NCBI GenBank assembly: GCA_030426475.1
Contig: JAUHYR010000004.1
Location: forward strand, 1 to 60,490
Direction of reading: 5' to 3'
Source of the DNA: Bacteroidia bacterium
GTDB taxonomy: Bacteria > Bacteroidota > Bacteroidia > Flavobacteriales_E > Vicingaceae
Length of the DNA: 60,490 bases
Shown here: piece by piece, positions 31,953 through 38,796 of the stretch
How the letters are laid out: each line of letters opens with the position of its first letter
Numbering within the stretch: position 1 is the stretch's first letter
The notes under the pieces: generated by a model
Told to the model about the DNA's origin: nothing
The model's database searches: none
The model's input: only the letters and a program-made list of their open reading frames with translations
Made by a program: the position numbers and the translations under genes

Positions 31953-33158
31953 ATGATTCCTTTTTCGCCTCCACATATTGATGAGAAAATAATAGCAGAA
32001 GTTACCGAAGCGCTTAAATCGGGATGGATAACAACAGGTCCAAGAACTAAACAATTAGAAAAAAATCTTACTGCTTATTGTGGAAACAAGTCAACTGTTT
32101 GTTTAAATTCTGCAACTGCCGGATTAGAATTAGTTTTAAGATGGTTTGGAGTAAAAGAGGGAGATGAAGTAATTATTCCCGGCTATACCTATTGCGCTAC
32201 TGCAAACGTAGTTGAGCATTGCGGTGCAAAGGCAGTAATGGTTGATGTAGGAAAAGATTTTAATATTTCTGTTGACGCAATTAAAAATGCTATTACCTCA
32301 AAGACAAAAGTGATTATTCCGGTAGATTTTTCGGGCTTTCCTTGTGATTATGGTGAGATTTATAAAGTTATTGAAGAGAAAAAGAATTTATTCAATGCTG
32401 AAACAGGTGAGCAGAAGCAATTAGGTAGAATACTATTACTAGCTGATGCTGCTCACTCTATTGGTGCTAAATATAAGGGGAAAATGTCCGGTAGTTTAGC
32501 AGATATTTCTTGTTTTTCTTTTCACGCAGTAAAGAATTTGACCACAGCAGAGGGCGGAACAATTAGTTTAAATCTTCCTGATTCGTTTAATCATGATGAG
32601 TTATACAGAATGTTTTGCATTAAGTCGCTTCACGGGCAAAGTAAAGATGCATTGGCAAAGTCACAAAAAGGCGCATGGAAATATGATGTGGTTGAAGCAG
32701 GATATAAATGTAACATGACTGACTTACAAGCTGCAATTGGATTAGTAGAGCTGGAGCGTTACAATGATATTTTGGCTAGACGTAAATCAATATTTAATCA
32801 ATACGATGCTGCTTTTAGTCAATACGACTTTTTTGAATTACCTTTTTCTAAAACAGATGAAAAGGAGTCGTCTTATCATGTATATGCGTTGAGAGTAAAG
32901 GGTATAGCTGAAGCTCAACGTGATGAAATTATTCAAAAAATCTTTGATAAAGACGTTTCTGTAAATGTTCACTTTCAGCCTTTACCGCTTTTATCTTATT
33001 ACAAAAACAAAGGATATAACATTAATAATTTTCCAAACGCTTATGATAATTTCTCCAGAGAAATAAGTCTTCCGGTTTATTATGATTTAGATGAAAGTAA
33101 CGTGAAAACCGTAATAGATGCAGTTATTCAATCTGTACAAGAAGTAATAAATGCTTAA
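31953..33158 (+). CDS. DegT/DnrJ/EryC1/StrS family sugar aminotransferase
   Basis: 401 residues of the PLP-dependent fold-type I family that converts a keto group on a nucleotide sugar to an amine. The PLP-binding Lys is Lys194 in SFHAVKNLTTAEGG and Asp165 (LADAAHSIG) pairs with the pyridine nitrogen. The N-terminus PFSPPHIDEKIIAEV is the family's usual opening. A TATCTTTG box lies upstream at about 31930-31937. It overlaps the initiating sugar transferase gene by 8 bases, which places it in polysaccharide synthesis, probably making the 4-amino sugar that starts the repeat unit. Confidence 0.9.
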   Translation: MIPFSPPHIDEKIIAEVTEALKSGWITTGPRTKQLEKNLTAYCGNKSTVCLNSATAGLELVLRWFGVKEGDEVIIPGYTYCATANVVEHCGAKAVMVDVGKDFNISVDAIKNAITSKTKVIIPVDFSGFPCDYGEIYKVIEEKKNLFNAETGEQKQLGRILLLADAAHSIGAKYKGKMSGSLADISCFSFHAVKNLTTAEGGTISLNLPDSFNHDELYRMFCIKSLHGQSKDALAKSQKGAWKYDVVEAGYKCNMTDLQAAIGLVELERYNDILARRKSIFNQYDAAFSQYDFFELPFSKTDEKESSYHVYALRVKGIAEAQRDEIIQKIFDKDVSVNVHFQPLPLLSYYKNKGYNINNFPNAYDNFSREISLPVYYDLDESNVKTVIDAVIQSVQEVINA

Positions 33159-33744
33159 GCGGGTATTCGATATCTTTTTTTCTGTTTTTGGAATAGTTTT
33201 ACTTTCTCCTCTCTTTTTTATAGTCGCATTGTTAATTATTGTTGAAAATGGTTTCCCGGTATTTTATACTCAAAAACGAGTTGGAAAAAGAGGTGTTGAA
33301 TTTTCATTATTGAAATTCAGAACTATGATAAAAGATGCTGATAAAAATGGACTTTTGACAGTTGGTGGGAGAGATGCAAGAATTACAAAAGTTGGCTATT
33401 ATCTTAGAAAAACTAAAGTTGACGAACTTCCTCAATTAATCAATGTTTTAATTGGAGATATGAGCCTAGTAGGTCCAAGGCCTGAAGTTAAGAAGTACAC
33501 AGACTTATATACTGAAAAACAACAACAAGTTTTAACTGTAAAGCCCGGAATTACTGATTATGCTTCCATTCAATTTGTTGATGAAAATGATTTATTGGGT
33601 AAATCAGAAAACCCGGAGGCAACATACATTAAGGAGATAATGCCAAAAAAACTTGAACTAAACTTAAAGTATATTCAAGAATCTTCTTTGATTACAGATT
33701 TAGCAATAATATTTAGAACTATTGCTAAAATCATTTTCCGATAA
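33151..33744 (+). CDS. Initiating undecaprenyl-phosphate sugar-1-phosphate transferase
   Basis: 197 residues, the small PglC-type single-domain form. One membrane-embedded helix lies near 8-30 (IFFSVFGIVLLSPLFFIVAL). Conserved motifs are YTQKRVGKRG, LLKFRTM (about 53-59), RKTKVDELPQLINVLIGDMSLVGPRPE and KPGITDYASIQF. It moves a sugar phosphate from a nucleotide sugar to undecaprenyl phosphate, the first step of repeat-unit assembly. With the aminotransferase it forms the plus-strand part of the polysaccharide locus. Confidence 0.93.
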   Translation: MLKRVFDIFFSVFGIVLLSPLFFIVALLIIVENGFPVFYTQKRVGKRGVEFSLLKFRTMIKDADKNGLLTVGGRDARITKVGYYLRKTKVDELPQLINVLIGDMSLVGPRPEVKKYTDLYTEKQQQVLTVKPGITDYASIQFVDENDLLGKSENPEATYIKEIMPKKLELNLKYIQESSLITDLAIIFRTIAKIIFR

Positions 33745-33774: not shown

Positions 33775-35247
33775 ATGAAAAGGTATTTACTGTTAGCATT
33801 AGTTACAGCTTCTACATCTACGTTATTTGCTCAAGCTGAGTTAAGTGCATTTACATCAACGGGTAGAGCGGGAGTTGCCACTACGTTTGTTACTGATTAT
33901 CAATGTGCGGGTATTAATCCGGCTAATTTGGGTTGGCAGCCAAAATATGAAGGGAAAAAGTTTACCACTTCTGCTATGGAATTTACTTTTTCATTGTATT
34001 CAGAGCCACTTAAAAAGCAAGAGCTTCGCCAAATATTTAAAGAAATATTAGGCGGAGAAAGAGCTGCAAAGCTTACACTAGATGAAAAAAAGCAAGCGGC
34101 CATAGATTTTACTGATGCCAAAACAGCCATGAATTTAGATTTGGCTATGTTTTCTTTTGCTGCACAATTTCCAAAAGCAGGAGGTTTTTCCTTTACTACA
34201 AGAGAGAGGATACAGTGGTTTTCACAACTGAATAAAAACGCAAGTGAAATTTTATTTTTAGGCTATAACGCTTCTTATTTTGATATAAAATTAGATAGTG
34301 CAGGAAATAACATTTCTGATTCTTCCAATGCTGAAGAAAAGATAAGGAGAGGCGTTGCTTCTAATCCAAAAACTTATAATGAAGTTTTTGATGGCACACA
34401 TATTTCATTGTCTTGGATGCGTGAATATAACTTAAGTTATGGGCATCATTTAATAAATAATGAAGACTTTAAATTATTTGCCGGAGCGGGAATTAAATAT
34501 TTTCAGGGAATAGCAATTATAGATGTTCAGTCAAATAATGGTGAGTTTTCTGCTTTTACCGCTTTTTCACCGGCTTTTGATTTGCAATTTGATTCTGCTG
34601 CAGTTGCCGATAATCCATCTGCTTTAGCTCCTGACACCAATAGCTTTTTACCCAAAAGTGTAGGTAGCGGATTTGGTTTTGATTTGGGTGTGAGTGTAAT
34701 TATTAAAGATAGAATTAAGCTAGGCCTAGCTGTGAATGATATTGGTTCTGTGCTTTGGGACGGAAACGTTTATACCGCTCCGAATGATACGGTTTATGAT
34801 ATTTCTTCTGACGGTGTAGAAAGTTATAATGTAATGGGTGAGGCATTAAACTCTTTCGGTGAAAGTGCTTTTGCCTGGAAAGGTGCATCTTCTAAAAGAG
34901 TGGCATTGCCGACTGTTTTAAGAACAGGAGCCAGCATTGCTTTTGGAGAAAACAAAAGTGTGGAAGTGGGAATTGATGCCATTATTCCATTCAATAATTT
35001 AAGTGGAAATTATGAAGATGCTTTATTTGCAATTGGTGGAGATGTTTGGCCAACTAAATGGTTACGACTTTCTACCGGAATGACATTTGGCGGAAATTAT
35101 GATTTTAATTTACCTGTGGGATTGGGAATTGTAGTGCCAACCGGCACCTGGGAGTTTGGTATTGCCTCCAGAGATGCGATTAGCTTTTTTGCCGATAACG
35201 GCCCAACTATTTCTTTAAGTACAGGGTTTTTGAGATTTAGATTTTAA
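33775..35247 (+). CDS. DUF5723 family outer-membrane protein
   Basis: 490 residues with a cleavable signal peptide ending STLFAQA (about residue 20). The beginning of the mature protein, ELSAFTSTGRAGVATTFVTDYQCAGINPANLGW, resembles FadL-like outer-membrane barrels of Bacteroidota and the DUF5723 family. The rest is beta-strand rich and ends SLSTGFLRFRF with a C-terminal Phe. Its function is unknown. Its last 33 bases overlap the convergent lipoprotein gene. Confidence 0.78.
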   Translation: MKRYLLLALVTASTSTLFAQAELSAFTSTGRAGVATTFVTDYQCAGINPANLGWQPKYEGKKFTTSAMEFTFSLYSEPLKKQELRQIFKEILGGERAAKLTLDEKKQAAIDFTDAKTAMNLDLAMFSFAAQFPKAGGFSFTTRERIQWFSQLNKNASEILFLGYNASYFDIKLDSAGNNISDSSNAEEKIRRGVASNPKTYNEVFDGTHISLSWMREYNLSYGHHLINNEDFKLFAGAGIKYFQGIAIIDVQSNNGEFSAFTAFSPAFDLQFDSAAVADNPSALAPDTNSFLPKSVGSGFGFDLGVSVIIKDRIKLGLAVNDIGSVLWDGNVYTAPNDTVYDISSDGVESYNVMGEALNSFGESAFAWKGASSKRVALPTVLRTGASIAFGENKSVEVGIDAIIPFNNLSGNYEDALFAIGGDVWPTKWLRLSTGMTFGGNYDFNLPVGLGIVVPTGTWEFGIASRDAISFFADNGPTISLSTGFLRFRF

Positions 35248-35967
35248 GGTTGCTAGATTATCTTTTATCATTGTATAGTAGATTTCAGTAAGTATAATGT
35301 ACTTTATATAAATATTATTCAAGTCATTTTTTAAGCTTAATAGTCCGTCAGATATTAGACAGGGCGATATATCTCCACCAACCGAAGTTTTTGCTTCGAC
35401 ATAATCTTTTACAATTGTATCGTTTGAAAATTTGTATAGTCCAAAAAGAAATGCTCCTCTTTGATTAGTCGAAAGTGTAGTGTCCCATCGCAATTTCATT
35501 GATTTCTCTAGACTATCATAATCAATGGATTTATCCTTAGTAATCGGAATTATTTCGTCTTCTATTTTAAGTTCTAAACTTTCAAGAGAGTCAGTTTGCA
35601 CTGTTTTATTAATTAATTCAAGTATAGGGTATTCTTTGTAGTCTGTTTCGCTACCATATAACCAAATATCTTTTCTTAGTCCTGTCTTTTCAAATTCTTC
35701 AAGTATTCTTTCATTTTTTTCTTTTTCAAAAATTAAATTAGGTTTCAAACTATCCTCACAAGAAAAATCTTTTAAAAAATCTCGAATACTTTCATTATTT
35801 ACTTCGCCATAGTTGTTTTCAATAAAACTATCAAAAGACAACATCAACTCGTTTAAAGCAATAGCTTTTTCTGTCCCTAAAAACTCAATAAATTCTTTAT
35901 TATCCGATTTATTATTACTACAGCTGAGTGTAGTTAATCCAATAAATAAAAAAATATAGAATCTCAT
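35215..35967 (-). CDS. Hypothetical lipoprotein
   Basis: 250 residues. The N-terminus MRFYIFLFIGLTTLSCSNN is a lipoprotein signal with Cys16 at the lipobox TLSC. The mature part is helical and charged and resembles no family I know. It lies 2 bases downstream of the phosphodiesterase-TPR-sulfotransferase gene in the same direction, so it may be its operon partner. It converges with the DUF5723 gene, with 33 bases of overlap. Confidence 0.7.
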   Translation of the reverse strand: MRFYIFLFIGLTTLSCSNNKSDNKEFIEFLGTEKAIALNELMLSFDSFIENNYGEVNNESIRDFLKDFSCEDSLKPNLIFEKEKNERILEEFEKTGLRKDIWLYGSETDYKEYPILELINKTVQTDSLESLELKIEDEIIPITKDKSIDYDSLEKSMKLRWDTTLSTNQRGAFLFGLYKFSNDTIVKDYVEAKTSVGGDISPCLISDGLLSLKNDLNNIYIKYIILTEIYYTMIKDNLATLKSKSQKPCT

Positions 35968-35969
35968 AT

Positions 35970-38630
35970 CTAAACCTTACTTCTATACAATTTAGCATCT
36001 ACTACCGCAGCCATTTTGTTGGTGTCTAATTTGTTGCCTAAAAACTCATTTATTTTTTCAGCTTGCGTTTTCGGGTCTTCTATTACAGCTGTGTAAGGTA
36101 TTTTTAAAATTTCTACATGGTGGTTTTTCGTTGCCCAAAAGTTTACCTTATCTAGGTTGTTTTTAAATGCAATTTCTAAGCCTGTACGGTATTCTCCTTC
36201 TTTAATTTTTCCGTCTCGGGTTAGCATTTTATGCTGGGAGTCTATTACTTCGTTTAGCTCCCTTTCCATAAAAATAATCTTGTAATTGTAGCGGGCAGGC
36301 AAGGAGGGAAGCAGTTGAGAAATAACCTTTACAGCTTTGTCTCCCACTTCATTAACCCATTTATTGTTTTTCATGGTTCCTTTTACCGCTTCATGTTCGT
36401 AGTATCCTTTTGGATTACTTTCATCAGCTTCACGCTTTTTGTCGGTAAAGATATCCATACCGCCTTGCTCCAGCATTTGCATCATCATTGAAGTTCCCGA
36501 TCTTGGTAAGCCGGAAACAACGGTAATAGTTCCTAAAGCTTTTCGCTTGATAGCTTCTTTTTGTTCTTCTATTTTTTCTTCAATGTTGTTTTCAATCTCT
36601 ACTTTTTCAATCATAGCAGAGTTTTCAGGTTTTTGAATATGATTGGTATAAATTTCAATCAGCCAGTTTCTAGCTTTTCCAATAGCCGGATTTTGACTCA
36701 AACAAACTTCAAAAGCATTGGCAGCAGCTTCGTATTCTTTGATATAAAACAAAGCTTCTCCTAAGTGATAATGTGCAAAAGGGAAATTATAAATATGTTC
36801 TATCGCCAATAAAAAGTTTTCAATGGCTTCTTCGTATTTGTTTTGGCGTAGCAAAGCTGTTCCCAAACCGTGAAGTGCTGTAGCTTTATGTGGGTCAATG
36901 TTTAGAGATGTTTTAAAATGCTCTTCTGCTTTTTTCCATTTCTTTAAAAGAATATAACACCTACCAATATGTAAATGCAAGTTAGGTGCTTTGCTAACGG
37001 ATACATCTAGTTTTGTTAAAATTTCTAGGGCTTCCTTGGGTTTATTCTCATCTATTAAAATCTTGGCTTCTTTTAAATCCAGTATTTTAAAATCAGTTGG
37101 AATATTTTCCGGATTTACTTTTCGTCTCTTGTTCTTAGAGTTTTTTAGCGCCTCTCGTTCTTTTGTTATATTTTCCTTGCTTAACTGAATCATTTCACGA
37201 GCTTCTTTATTCCTATTCAGCTCAGCATAACAATCAGAGAGTTTTAAGGTAAACCTTGAAGAGTCAGGGCTTTTTTGGTGAAGTTCCAGTAAAACATCAA
37301 TAGCTTCTTGATGTTTGTTTGCTCCGATATAAGCTTGCGCAAGATTGTATCTGTTTTCTTGGTATGCATTATTTCTGGCCTTTTCTGCATTTTCATCAGG
37401 TCTGTCAATGTAGCCTAATTCAACTAATTGGTCAATAGCATTTTTTGCATCGGCACTACTTTCTGCCATTTCTTTTGGATGCATTCCGCTATTTCCGGCA
37501 ACATTTTCCCAACTATCAATAAGCTTTATTTTTTGCGGTTCTTCAAATGCATTGACTAAAACTTTGCCATCCATGTCTTCGCCAATAGGTAAACCAAACA
37601 GATGAAGTACGGTAGGAGCAATGTCTAGCAAACTTACACCTGTGAGTGTTTCATCTTTTTTTATTCCCGGACCGCTCATGCAGAAAATTCCATATCTTCT
37701 GTGCTCGAAAGCCGGAGCAGCAGGCTCATGAGGTAAGCTGGTTAAGCGCAAATGGTCAGAGTGAAAGCCATGGTCGCTCACTAAAATAATATAAGTGTCA
37801 TCATCAATCAGCTGTAAATATCTTTCCAGAATCATGTCATGGAAAATATAGGCTCCGTTGATAATGTCTTTATAAAGTTCGAAATGTGTGTCTGGTAAGC
37901 CCGGTAATTGGGGCGGATGATATTTCATAAAGCCATGAGAAAAGTGGTCGATACCGTCAAAATAAATAGCTGAAAAATCCCATTCGGTATTTTCAACACA
38001 CCATGTTCCTGCTGAATGTACACTGGCTGTGTCCGCTAATATTTTACAAAACATTTCTACTCTTTTATCTTCTTCTTGATTAATTTCGGCTAGTCTTGGA
38101 ATAAATGGTTTTACATGAGCTTCAGTTAATTCTTGTGGGTGAACTCTAAGTGCTGCAATGGTTTCAGCTAAGCTTTCAGGATGTACCGTTCCTTTAGCCA
38201 TTTCCCAGGCTTTATCAATAGATTTGTTGGCTCTTTGGTAAAAATTAGAAACCATCACTCCATTTATTGGCTCAGCCGGGTGACTTGGCCACCAGGAAAT
38301 TACATTTGATTTATATCCGTTTTGGTTTAAAATATTCCAGATACCTTTTGCTTTTCTTGATAAAGAGGAGACAGGTCTAATGCTTTCACTATTTGGATCA
38401 GGCTCTGTGAAACCATGAACTCCATGTTTGAAAGCATACTTTCCTGTGGTGATAGAGCTCCATAGCATTGGAGATAAAACAGGCTCTAGGGTAGATATGT
38501 TGCCCATTACACCATTATTAACCAATCTTTCCATAGCAGGCATTTTTCCTGCATCCATTAGTGGGTGAATCACTTGCCAGTCGGCTGCATCCCAGCCTAT
38601 GAGCAATACTTTTTTATTTTTTTTGCTCAT
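35970..38630 (-). CDS. Type I phosphodiesterase/alkaline-phosphatase-like, TPR and sulfotransferase fusion
   Basis: 886 residues with three parts. Residues 5-365 are an alkaline-phosphatase-superfamily domain of the type I phosphodiesterase class: Asp14 in LIGWDAADW, a Ser/Thr nucleophile region SPMLWSSITTGK (53-64), Asp225/His229 in YFDGIDHFSHG, Asp286-His287 in VSDHGFHSD, and a final His in LPHEP. Residues of about 425-670 are TPRs (KKAEEHFKTSLNIDPHKATA, YEEAIENFLLAIEH). Residues of about 700-886 look like a sulfotransferase, with a PAPS-type phosphate loop SGLPRSGTSMM (706-716). There is no signal peptide, so it should be cytoplasmic. It overlaps a small gene at its 5' end and abuts a lipoprotein gene downstream. 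The substrate is unknown. Confidence 0.85.
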   Translation of the reverse strand: MSKKNKKVLLIGWDAADWQVIHPLMDAGKMPAMERLVNNGVMGNISTLEPVLSPMLWSSITTGKYAFKHGVHGFTEPDPNSESIRPVSSLSRKAKGIWNILNQNGYKSNVISWWPSHPAEPINGVMVSNFYQRANKSIDKAWEMAKGTVHPESLAETIAALRVHPQELTEAHVKPFIPRLAEINQEEDKRVEMFCKILADTASVHSAGTWCVENTEWDFSAIYFDGIDHFSHGFMKYHPPQLPGLPDTHFELYKDIINGAYIFHDMILERYLQLIDDDTYIILVSDHGFHSDHLRLTSLPHEPAAPAFEHRRYGIFCMSGPGIKKDETLTGVSLLDIAPTVLHLFGLPIGEDMDGKVLVNAFEEPQKIKLIDSWENVAGNSGMHPKEMAESSADAKNAIDQLVELGYIDRPDENAEKARNNAYQENRYNLAQAYIGANKHQEAIDVLLELHQKSPDSSRFTLKLSDCYAELNRNKEAREMIQLSKENITKEREALKNSKNKRRKVNPENIPTDFKILDLKEAKILIDENKPKEALEILTKLDVSVSKAPNLHLHIGRCYILLKKWKKAEEHFKTSLNIDPHKATALHGLGTALLRQNKYEEAIENFLLAIEHIYNFPFAHYHLGEALFYIKEYEAAANAFEVCLSQNPAIGKARNWLIEIYTNHIQKPENSAMIEKVEIENNIEEKIEEQKEAIKRKALGTITVVSGLPRSGTSMMMQMLEQGGMDIFTDKKREADESNPKGYYEHEAVKGTMKNNKWVNEVGDKAVKVISQLLPSLPARYNYKIIFMERELNEVIDSQHKMLTRDGKIKEGEYRTGLEIAFKNNLDKVNFWATKNHHVEILKIPYTAVIEDPKTQAEKINEFLGNKLDTNKMAAVVDAKLYRSKV

Positions 38631-38796
38631 TTTCTTTTTTGTTTAATAAATTACCAACTTCTTTTCTTTTCATCCTCCAGGCCATTAGACCTTTGTAGCC
38701 AAGTGCTAAAAGACCAATTGAACCTTCAACCGGAACTTCAATGGTTTTTCCGTCTTTATCCTTAATTATCGGACTATTTTTTTCGATATTTTGCAT
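38614..38796 (-). CDS. Small conserved-looking protein upstream of the fusion enzyme
   Basis: 60 residues: an acidic start (MQNIEKNSPIIKDKDGKTIE), a central VPVEGSIGLLALGYKGLMAW that could lie at a membrane or a protein surface, and a basic end. Its last 17 bases overlap the start of the 886-residue fusion gene, which suggests translational coupling and argues that it is real. A hairpin terminator at 38808-38838 isolates it from the gene before. No family is recognised. Confidence 0.55.
   Translation of the reverse strand: MQNIEKNSPIIKDKDGKTIEVPVEGSIGLLALGYKGLMAWRMKRKEVGNLLNKKENEQKK

Follow-up and report, generated by a model that had tools for sequence, protein, structure and literature searches.

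Our analysis suggests that a protein fusing a phosphodiesterase, a TPR region and a sulfotransferase domain, together with a small protein of 60 residues and a tagged cargo, forms an undescribed system that sulfates surface proteins, or gates them, before their export. We tentatively place it, at a little short of an even chance, as a cytosolic, PAPS-dependent module that would modify co-encoded T9SS proteins before export by recognizing their signal, a reading that draws on sequence comparisons and on structural models. If it is correct, a covalent modification step is added before T9SS export, and this could explain a conserved export tag. The findings point to a module that is class-wide and so far unnamed. 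It would connect PAPS and a secretion system with a protein that joins two enzymes on a TPR scaffold, and it offers a defined candidate substrate family and a candidate residue. A search of an open-access library of papers found nothing on the phosphodiesterase–TPR–sulfotransferase architecture or its partners.

The window is the whole stretch of 60,490 nucleotides of DNA that was analyzed, in which the genes and domains of the locus are arranged as follows.

35970..38630, minus strand: phosphodiesterase–TPR–sulfotransferase fusion, 886 amino acids, predicted cytosolic (open reading frame call and Pfam)
37401..38630, minus strand: NPP-type domain of the alkaline-phosphatase superfamily, residues 1–410 (PF01663, invariant residues, structural match of a homologue's model to ENPP3)
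36561..37379, minus strand: TPR superhelix, residues about 418–690 (TPR families, structural match to 1w3b)
35970..36548, minus strand: PAPS-type sulfotransferase domain, residues 695–886 plus stop (Pfam, motifs, fold)
36492..36512, minus strand: 5′-phosphosulfate-binding loop GLPRSGT, residues 707–713 (motif conservation)
36237..36263, minus strand: 3′-phosphate-binding motif R790-x7-S798 (conservation, alignment with SULT1C2)
38614..38796, minus strand: gene of the small accessory protein, 60 amino acids (overlaps the fusion start, conserved partner)
35215..35967, minus strand: lipoprotein-like gene, outside the conserved unit (no relative in the compared neighbourhoods)

The 886-residue protein exceeds the Pfam cut-offs for PF01663 (residues 8–290, E 7.9e-23), for TPR families at about residues 418–660, and for both PF00685 (residues 704–877, E 3.6e-7) and PF13469. 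The initial annotation had read one polypeptide here with an alkaline-phosphatase-type metal site, TPRs and a PAPS-loop sulfotransferase. Pfam and the invariant residues agree with this, and when each part was submitted to family search and structure prediction the cut-offs were passed and the models matched NPP, TPR and PAPS-sulfotransferase folds. The N-terminus, MSKKNKKVLLIGWDAADW, has no signal peptide as judged by eye, in keeping with the earlier claim that the fusion lacks an export signal, and the small gene was correctly placed upstream with a 17-base overlap, the two reading frames sharing 38614–38630. The claim of a lipoprotein gene 2 bases downstream of the fusion holds for its position, but not for a conserved partnership, since a related gene was sought in the compared fusion neighbourhoods and none was found. 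It was rejected as a functional partner on this ground, and by this comparison its place next to the fusion is incidental. No RNA families were found within the window.

How widespread is the fusion? In the order sample 46 genomes were searched, and 11 of these encode it in full or nearly so (in G011 and G039 it is cut by contig ends), with a twelfth, G037, holding a fragment at a contig end. The class sample contains the full-length protein in 29 of 395 genomes, so that the joining of its parts is more than chance. Five genomes of the same sample (G165, G257, G366, G404 and G419) have a split form, with the phosphodiesterase–TPR protein and the sulfotransferase as separate genes, and G331 has a piece at a contig end. 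Two of 395 genomes in the phylum sample have the fusion, namely the window's own genome and G241, and the genomes named there all belong to the same class. A mobile origin was considered and rejected: comparison of positions 36525–37270 of the window gave no phage match, and among the ten plasmid matches listed there are just haloarchaeal hydrolase domains at 23–28% identity, with no plasmid match found for the sulfotransferase domain.

On its sequence and its predicted structure, the C-terminal domain is a member of the PAPS sulfotransferase superfamily. Taken alone it exceeds the cut-offs of both PF00685 and PF13469. The G, P, R, G, T and S columns of the GLPRSGTS loop are invariant in 37 of 37 sulfotransferase domains, and the loop serine of PRSGT is nearly invariant, with a single PRAGT among the 37. 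R790 and S798 (R96 and S104 of the domain) are likewise unchanged in all 37, and the stretch from R790 to S798 aligns with the same region of SULT1C2. The model of the window domain (pLDDT 89.6, pTM 0.87) matches PAP-bound sulfotransferases. Absence of the 3′-phosphate site would have told against the initial annotation, yet the R-x7-S motif and the 5′ loop are both present and the domain is predicted to fold like the PAPS sulfotransferases. The first-ranked Foldseek match is TPST2 (3ap2_B, E 3.6e-5), and in VIA TPSTs fill the top seven rows (Z 13.4 to 12.8, 164–168 aligned residues, rmsd 2.8–3.2, 13–15% identity), with which the sulfotransferase domains of CurM and of olefin synthase (Z 12.4) tie, lying within 1 Z. 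Among PDB entries, mouse SULT1D1 (2zpt, E 4.7e-6) gives the best match by sequence profile.

Might this part of the protein be dead as a catalyst and serve for binding? In G257 and G404 the P-loop is gone from the fused copy, which shows that such a loss can occur. However, each of these genomes encodes an intact, separate copy that adjoins the defective one, which argues that activity matters, and the PAPS-binding residues are invariant in all of the 37 other domains. We therefore consider a dead module most improbable.

Genes for the sulfate donor were also surveyed. APS kinase (PF01583, E 1e-20 or better) is present in 39 of the 40 genomes with the fused or split form, compared with 22 of 40 others from the same draws (Fisher p 8e-6, with the genomes taken as unrelated); the one genome missing it, G063, is 84% complete. 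The initial annotation had pointed to PAPS synthesis genes as something to look for, and in the window's own genome an APS kinase was indeed found, at C54. The kinase gene lies beside the enzyme genes in four genomes. It overlaps the stop of the fusion by one base in G179, and in G347 it adjoins the fusion on the other strand, while in G366 and G419 cysC, cysD, cysN and the separate sulfotransferase gene stand in one same-strand row, an apparent operon.

The N-terminal domain has a well conserved active site. Residues D14, D225, H229, D286, H287 and H310, which we take to be the six metal ligands of the alkaline-phosphatase superfamily, and S53, the putative nucleophile, do not vary among the 10 relatives aligned, nor do the corresponding columns in any of 38 sequences of a wider alignment. 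The hydrolase domain in the model of a homologue matches ENPP3 (6c01_B, Z 27.7, rmsd 2.8, 275 aligned residues), and also ENPP1 and the Xac NPP. Formylglycine sulfatases carry a C/S-x-P-x-R activation motif; here the nucleophile site reads S53-P-M-L-W and the match to PF00884 is partial (E 4.8e-8), and a formylglycine sulfatase was rejected because the motif is absent. NPP enzymes bind adenine nucleotides, and this, like the structural matches to ENPP1, ENPP3 and the Xac NPP, is consistent with a housekeeping function in which the domain destroys the inhibitory by-product PAP or excess PAPS, the fusion doing no more than coupling sulfate transfer to the clearing of what it leaves behind. Furthermore the hydrolase and the sulfotransferase are still linked when they are split, also beside the cysC-cysD-cysN row. 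This function would account for neither the TPRs nor the small protein, and we regard it as somewhat unlikely; it is nevertheless compatible with the explanation that we prefer, that of modification of T9SS proteins before export.

The TPR region is the fastest-changing part of the fusion protein. Its repeats structurally resemble the TPR domain of O-GlcNAc transferase (1w3b); this enzyme and SPINDLY are transferases that modify proteins. A profile scan of the contigs also returned two unrelated TPR loci.

The small protein is a constant companion of the fusion. Its profile is strong in the same 29 genomes of the 395 in the class sample that have the full fusion (E 9.3e-10 or better), and weak in G326, G327 and G340 (E 0.001 to 0.008), where the frames are unrelated. 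The gene is present at 36 of 37 fusion loci with flanks, the exception being L043, where the contig ends inside the fusion. Whether it always accompanies the fusion had been raised at the outset, and it does so at all 36 loci where its place is readable; it was found at none of the five split loci. At three loci (L122, L127 and L140) the small protein forms the in-frame N-terminus of the enzyme. The model of the natural fusion of L140 (891 amino acids, pLDDT 87.1, pTM 0.75) places two short helices in the small-protein part, with a pLDDT of about 90 for residues 11–30. The core of the family reads VPxEGSLGLLALGxxGLxAWRxxR, with invariant columns G25, L30, G33 and G36 and no conserved tyrosine.

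RaxX of Xanthomonas is a tyrosine-sulfated substrate of RaxST, according to PMC6637879. The window's small protein was rejected as a sulfated substrate; unlike RaxX, it is more likely a subunit, because its family conserves no tyrosine and three genomes encode it in one piece with the enzyme. Weak matches to PF07589 (PEP-CTERM, best E 0.0093) and to PFE-CTERM (best E 0.00036) were each obtained for 14 of 33 members of the family, that of the window having neither. The small protein is not the C-terminal tail of an exported protein, being either a separate reading frame without a signal or the N-terminus of the enzyme. A link to exosortase was discarded, as PF09721 matches occur commonly whether or not the fusion is present and do not separate the genomes.

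The third partner is a secreted protein. Over 37 fusion and five split loci, the commonest gene next to the enzyme encodes a family of T9SS cargo that we label YTD from its mature start. At 31 of the 42 loci (29 of 37 fusions and two of five split) its gene is on the enzyme's strand and no more than 300 nt away, and at 33 of 42 it is within the examined flanks; at six of the 37 fusions, among them that of the window, those flanks hold no YTD gene. The TIGR04183 sorting domain exceeds its 23-bit cut-off in each of eight YTD proteins scanned, assigning them to T9SS type A cargo. Matches to the family are found in 46 class-sample genomes: 28 of the 29 with the fusion, two of the five with the split form and 16 with neither. 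In the window's genome two YTD copies with the signal motif described below are on C118, a contig other than that of the window; the signal of the third copy of the domain (C3), MRKIYTLLAIIVAMTINSNAQ, is of the ordinary kind and lacks the motif.

The signal peptide of the YTD proteins near fusions reads KLKxYS(A)xA. The motif [KRHQ][LIM]xxY[SATMGP] is present in 53 of 55 such proteins, the exceptions being both copies at L143, where despite absence of the motif the tyrosine is still at the aligned place. None of 17 homologues from fusion-free genomes has it (15 of 16 genomes read), and YTD proteins with ordinary signals also occur in fusion genomes. All 48 nonredundant sequences have the signal tyrosine, the sole invariant column of 62. 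A tyrosine of the mature protein, conserved in 41 of 48, was rejected as an acceptor. Of the genomes with the fused or split form, 28 were tested with a model of the signal alone and 24 gave a match, as did one of 28 fusion-free genomes (G055, a weak match in a frame of 20 amino acids), although the profiles used to find the signals contain the tyrosine, so that these counts are biased. With the same bias, sixteen further copies found with the signal model in G063 and G076 keep the tyrosine while their mature part diverges.

The four genomes not matched by the signal model are G241, G165, G366 and G419. G241 has the fusion and the small gene, but neither the YTD family nor a match to the signal; the T9SS protein encoded next to its enzyme begins with a long N-terminus of another kind. 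The partner signal in G366 and G419 is HLKTCSAAAL or QLKACSAAAL, with a cysteine replacing the tyrosine, and the protein neighbouring the enzyme in G165 has no such motif. The neighbouring proteins of G419, G165 and G241 do contain the T9SS domain, the copy in G366 being cut by a contig end and left out. Cargo of this kind next to systems lacking the tyrosine indicates that the enzyme is linked to T9SS cargo more widely than to the tyrosine. As sequences, these four systems speak against the signal tyrosine as a universal acceptor.

Are the small protein and the T9SS family merely neighbours, with no functional tie to the fusion? The T9SS copies of the window's genome are on another contig, and G241 lacks the YTD family, as might be expected of mere neighbours. 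Against this, the small gene and the fusion co-occur in 29 of 29 genomes, with three in-frame fusions, and the T9SS family is present in 28 of 29 fusion genomes that span several families of the class. Simple adjacency is thus very unlikely, though transfer as a linked cassette could be the source of the co-distribution.

A different acceptor must also be weighed. Glycans and small molecules are the acceptors of many PAPS sulfotransferases, and the enzyme might sulfate a polysaccharide, a glycolipid or another small acceptor, with the T9SS protein binding or displaying the product. A 3-O-sulfotransferase, which acts on glycans, also matches the model of the window domain (Z 11.6), and the hydrolase domain has distant relatives in haloarchaea that lie in a polysaccharide cluster (one record). 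There is a DegT aminotransferase with a sugar transferase about 2 kb from the window's fusion, and a related pair near L139. Yet glycosyltransferases do not form a conserved part of the loci compared, and a glycan acceptor does not explain that it is the signal peptide, rather than the mature domain alone, that marks the partner in fusion genomes. We consider such an acceptor rather unlikely.

Modification of the secreted protein itself is the reading that we prefer. The initial annotation had offered either one enzyme that removes and adds groups or a scaffolded modification of a surface molecule, and the second is favoured because the conserved third partner is a T9SS-secreted family. The cytosolic fusion, aided by the small protein, would bind the co-encoded precursor through its TPR superhelix and recognize its unusual signal peptide, and the sulfotransferase domain would then move sulfate from PAPS onto the precursor before its export by Sec and T9SS. 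The NPP-type domain may belong to this cycle too, acting on PAP, the by-product, or stripping an ester from the substrate. We infer that the secreted protein is the substrate and the signal the recognition element, and likewise the role of the hydrolase domain.

A bolder proposal is that the invariant tyrosine of the KLKxYS signal is itself the acceptor, O-sulfated in the cytosol. The negative charge thus added where the signal core begins might hold or route the precursor until it is removed by the NPP-type domain, or the sulfated peptide might after cleavage be released to serve as a messenger; the small protein would then be an adaptor resembling a sorting tail, moved from cargo to enzyme. 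We think this quite improbable. If true, it would mean that a bacterial signal peptide can be switched by a reversible chemical change. Very few cases of sulfated bacterial proteins are known, RaxX being one.

Several known systems invite comparison. The hydrolase domain has its fold and metal ligands in common with ENPP1, ENPP3 and the Xac NPP, but differs from these enzymes in its predicted cytosolic location, in having serine as nucleophile and in its fusion to the TPR and sulfotransferase parts. Human TPST1 and TPST2 and the tick TPST are the top structural matches of the sulfotransferase domain, in a tie with CurM and olefin synthase, and have PAPS motifs of the same kind; the window domain is shorter, has no export signal and is fused to a phosphodiesterase and TPRs. 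As in O-GlcNAc transferase and SPINDLY, a TPR superhelix is joined to a transferase, but here the transferase is a sulfotransferase and a second catalytic domain is present. The core of the small protein resembles the sorting tails of the PEP-CTERM/exosortase type, weakly so by profile; unlike them, it is separate or N-terminal to the enzyme, rather than the C-terminus of an exported protein. Lastly, in RaxX–RaxST of Xanthomonas, as presented in PMC6637879, a PAPS-dependent sulfotransferase is likewise encoded next to a protein of 60 residues and has a link to secretion, but in that case export is type I, whereas the system of the window is associated with T9SS.

Where the phosphodiesterase-TPR protein and the sulfotransferase are encoded by separate genes, the split form can share its neighbourhood with cysC, cysD and cysN together with a gene for an Rrf2-type regulator, as at loci L145 (252-6477) and L149 (838-6714). 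This proximity suggests that sulfur supply controls the split form. At two further loci, L138 (8294-11319) and L148 (7801-10784), the phosphodiesterase-TPR protein carries a degenerate sulfotransferase tail and is adjoined by a separate, intact sulfotransferase; the two proteins are a putative pseudoenzyme/enzyme pair.

In the window, about 2 kb separates the fusion from two genes (31953-33744), one encoding an aminotransferase of the DegT type and the other a bacterial sugar transferase. A related pair is found near the fusion in a different family, at L139. The gene for a DUF5723 (PF18990) protein (33775-35247) has its 3′ end within an overlap with the lipoprotein-like gene, which is on the opposite strand. 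Further sulfotransferase-like genes (PF13469) are present on contigs C6 and C8 of the window's genome (L001-L005).

The family bearing the KLKxYS signal is greatly expanded in genome G076, with diverging mature parts and 24 matches to the signal (L209-L216). In genome G165 the split enzyme genes are flanked by two very large T9SS proteins, of 1681 and 1203 aa (L130, 3417-15134).
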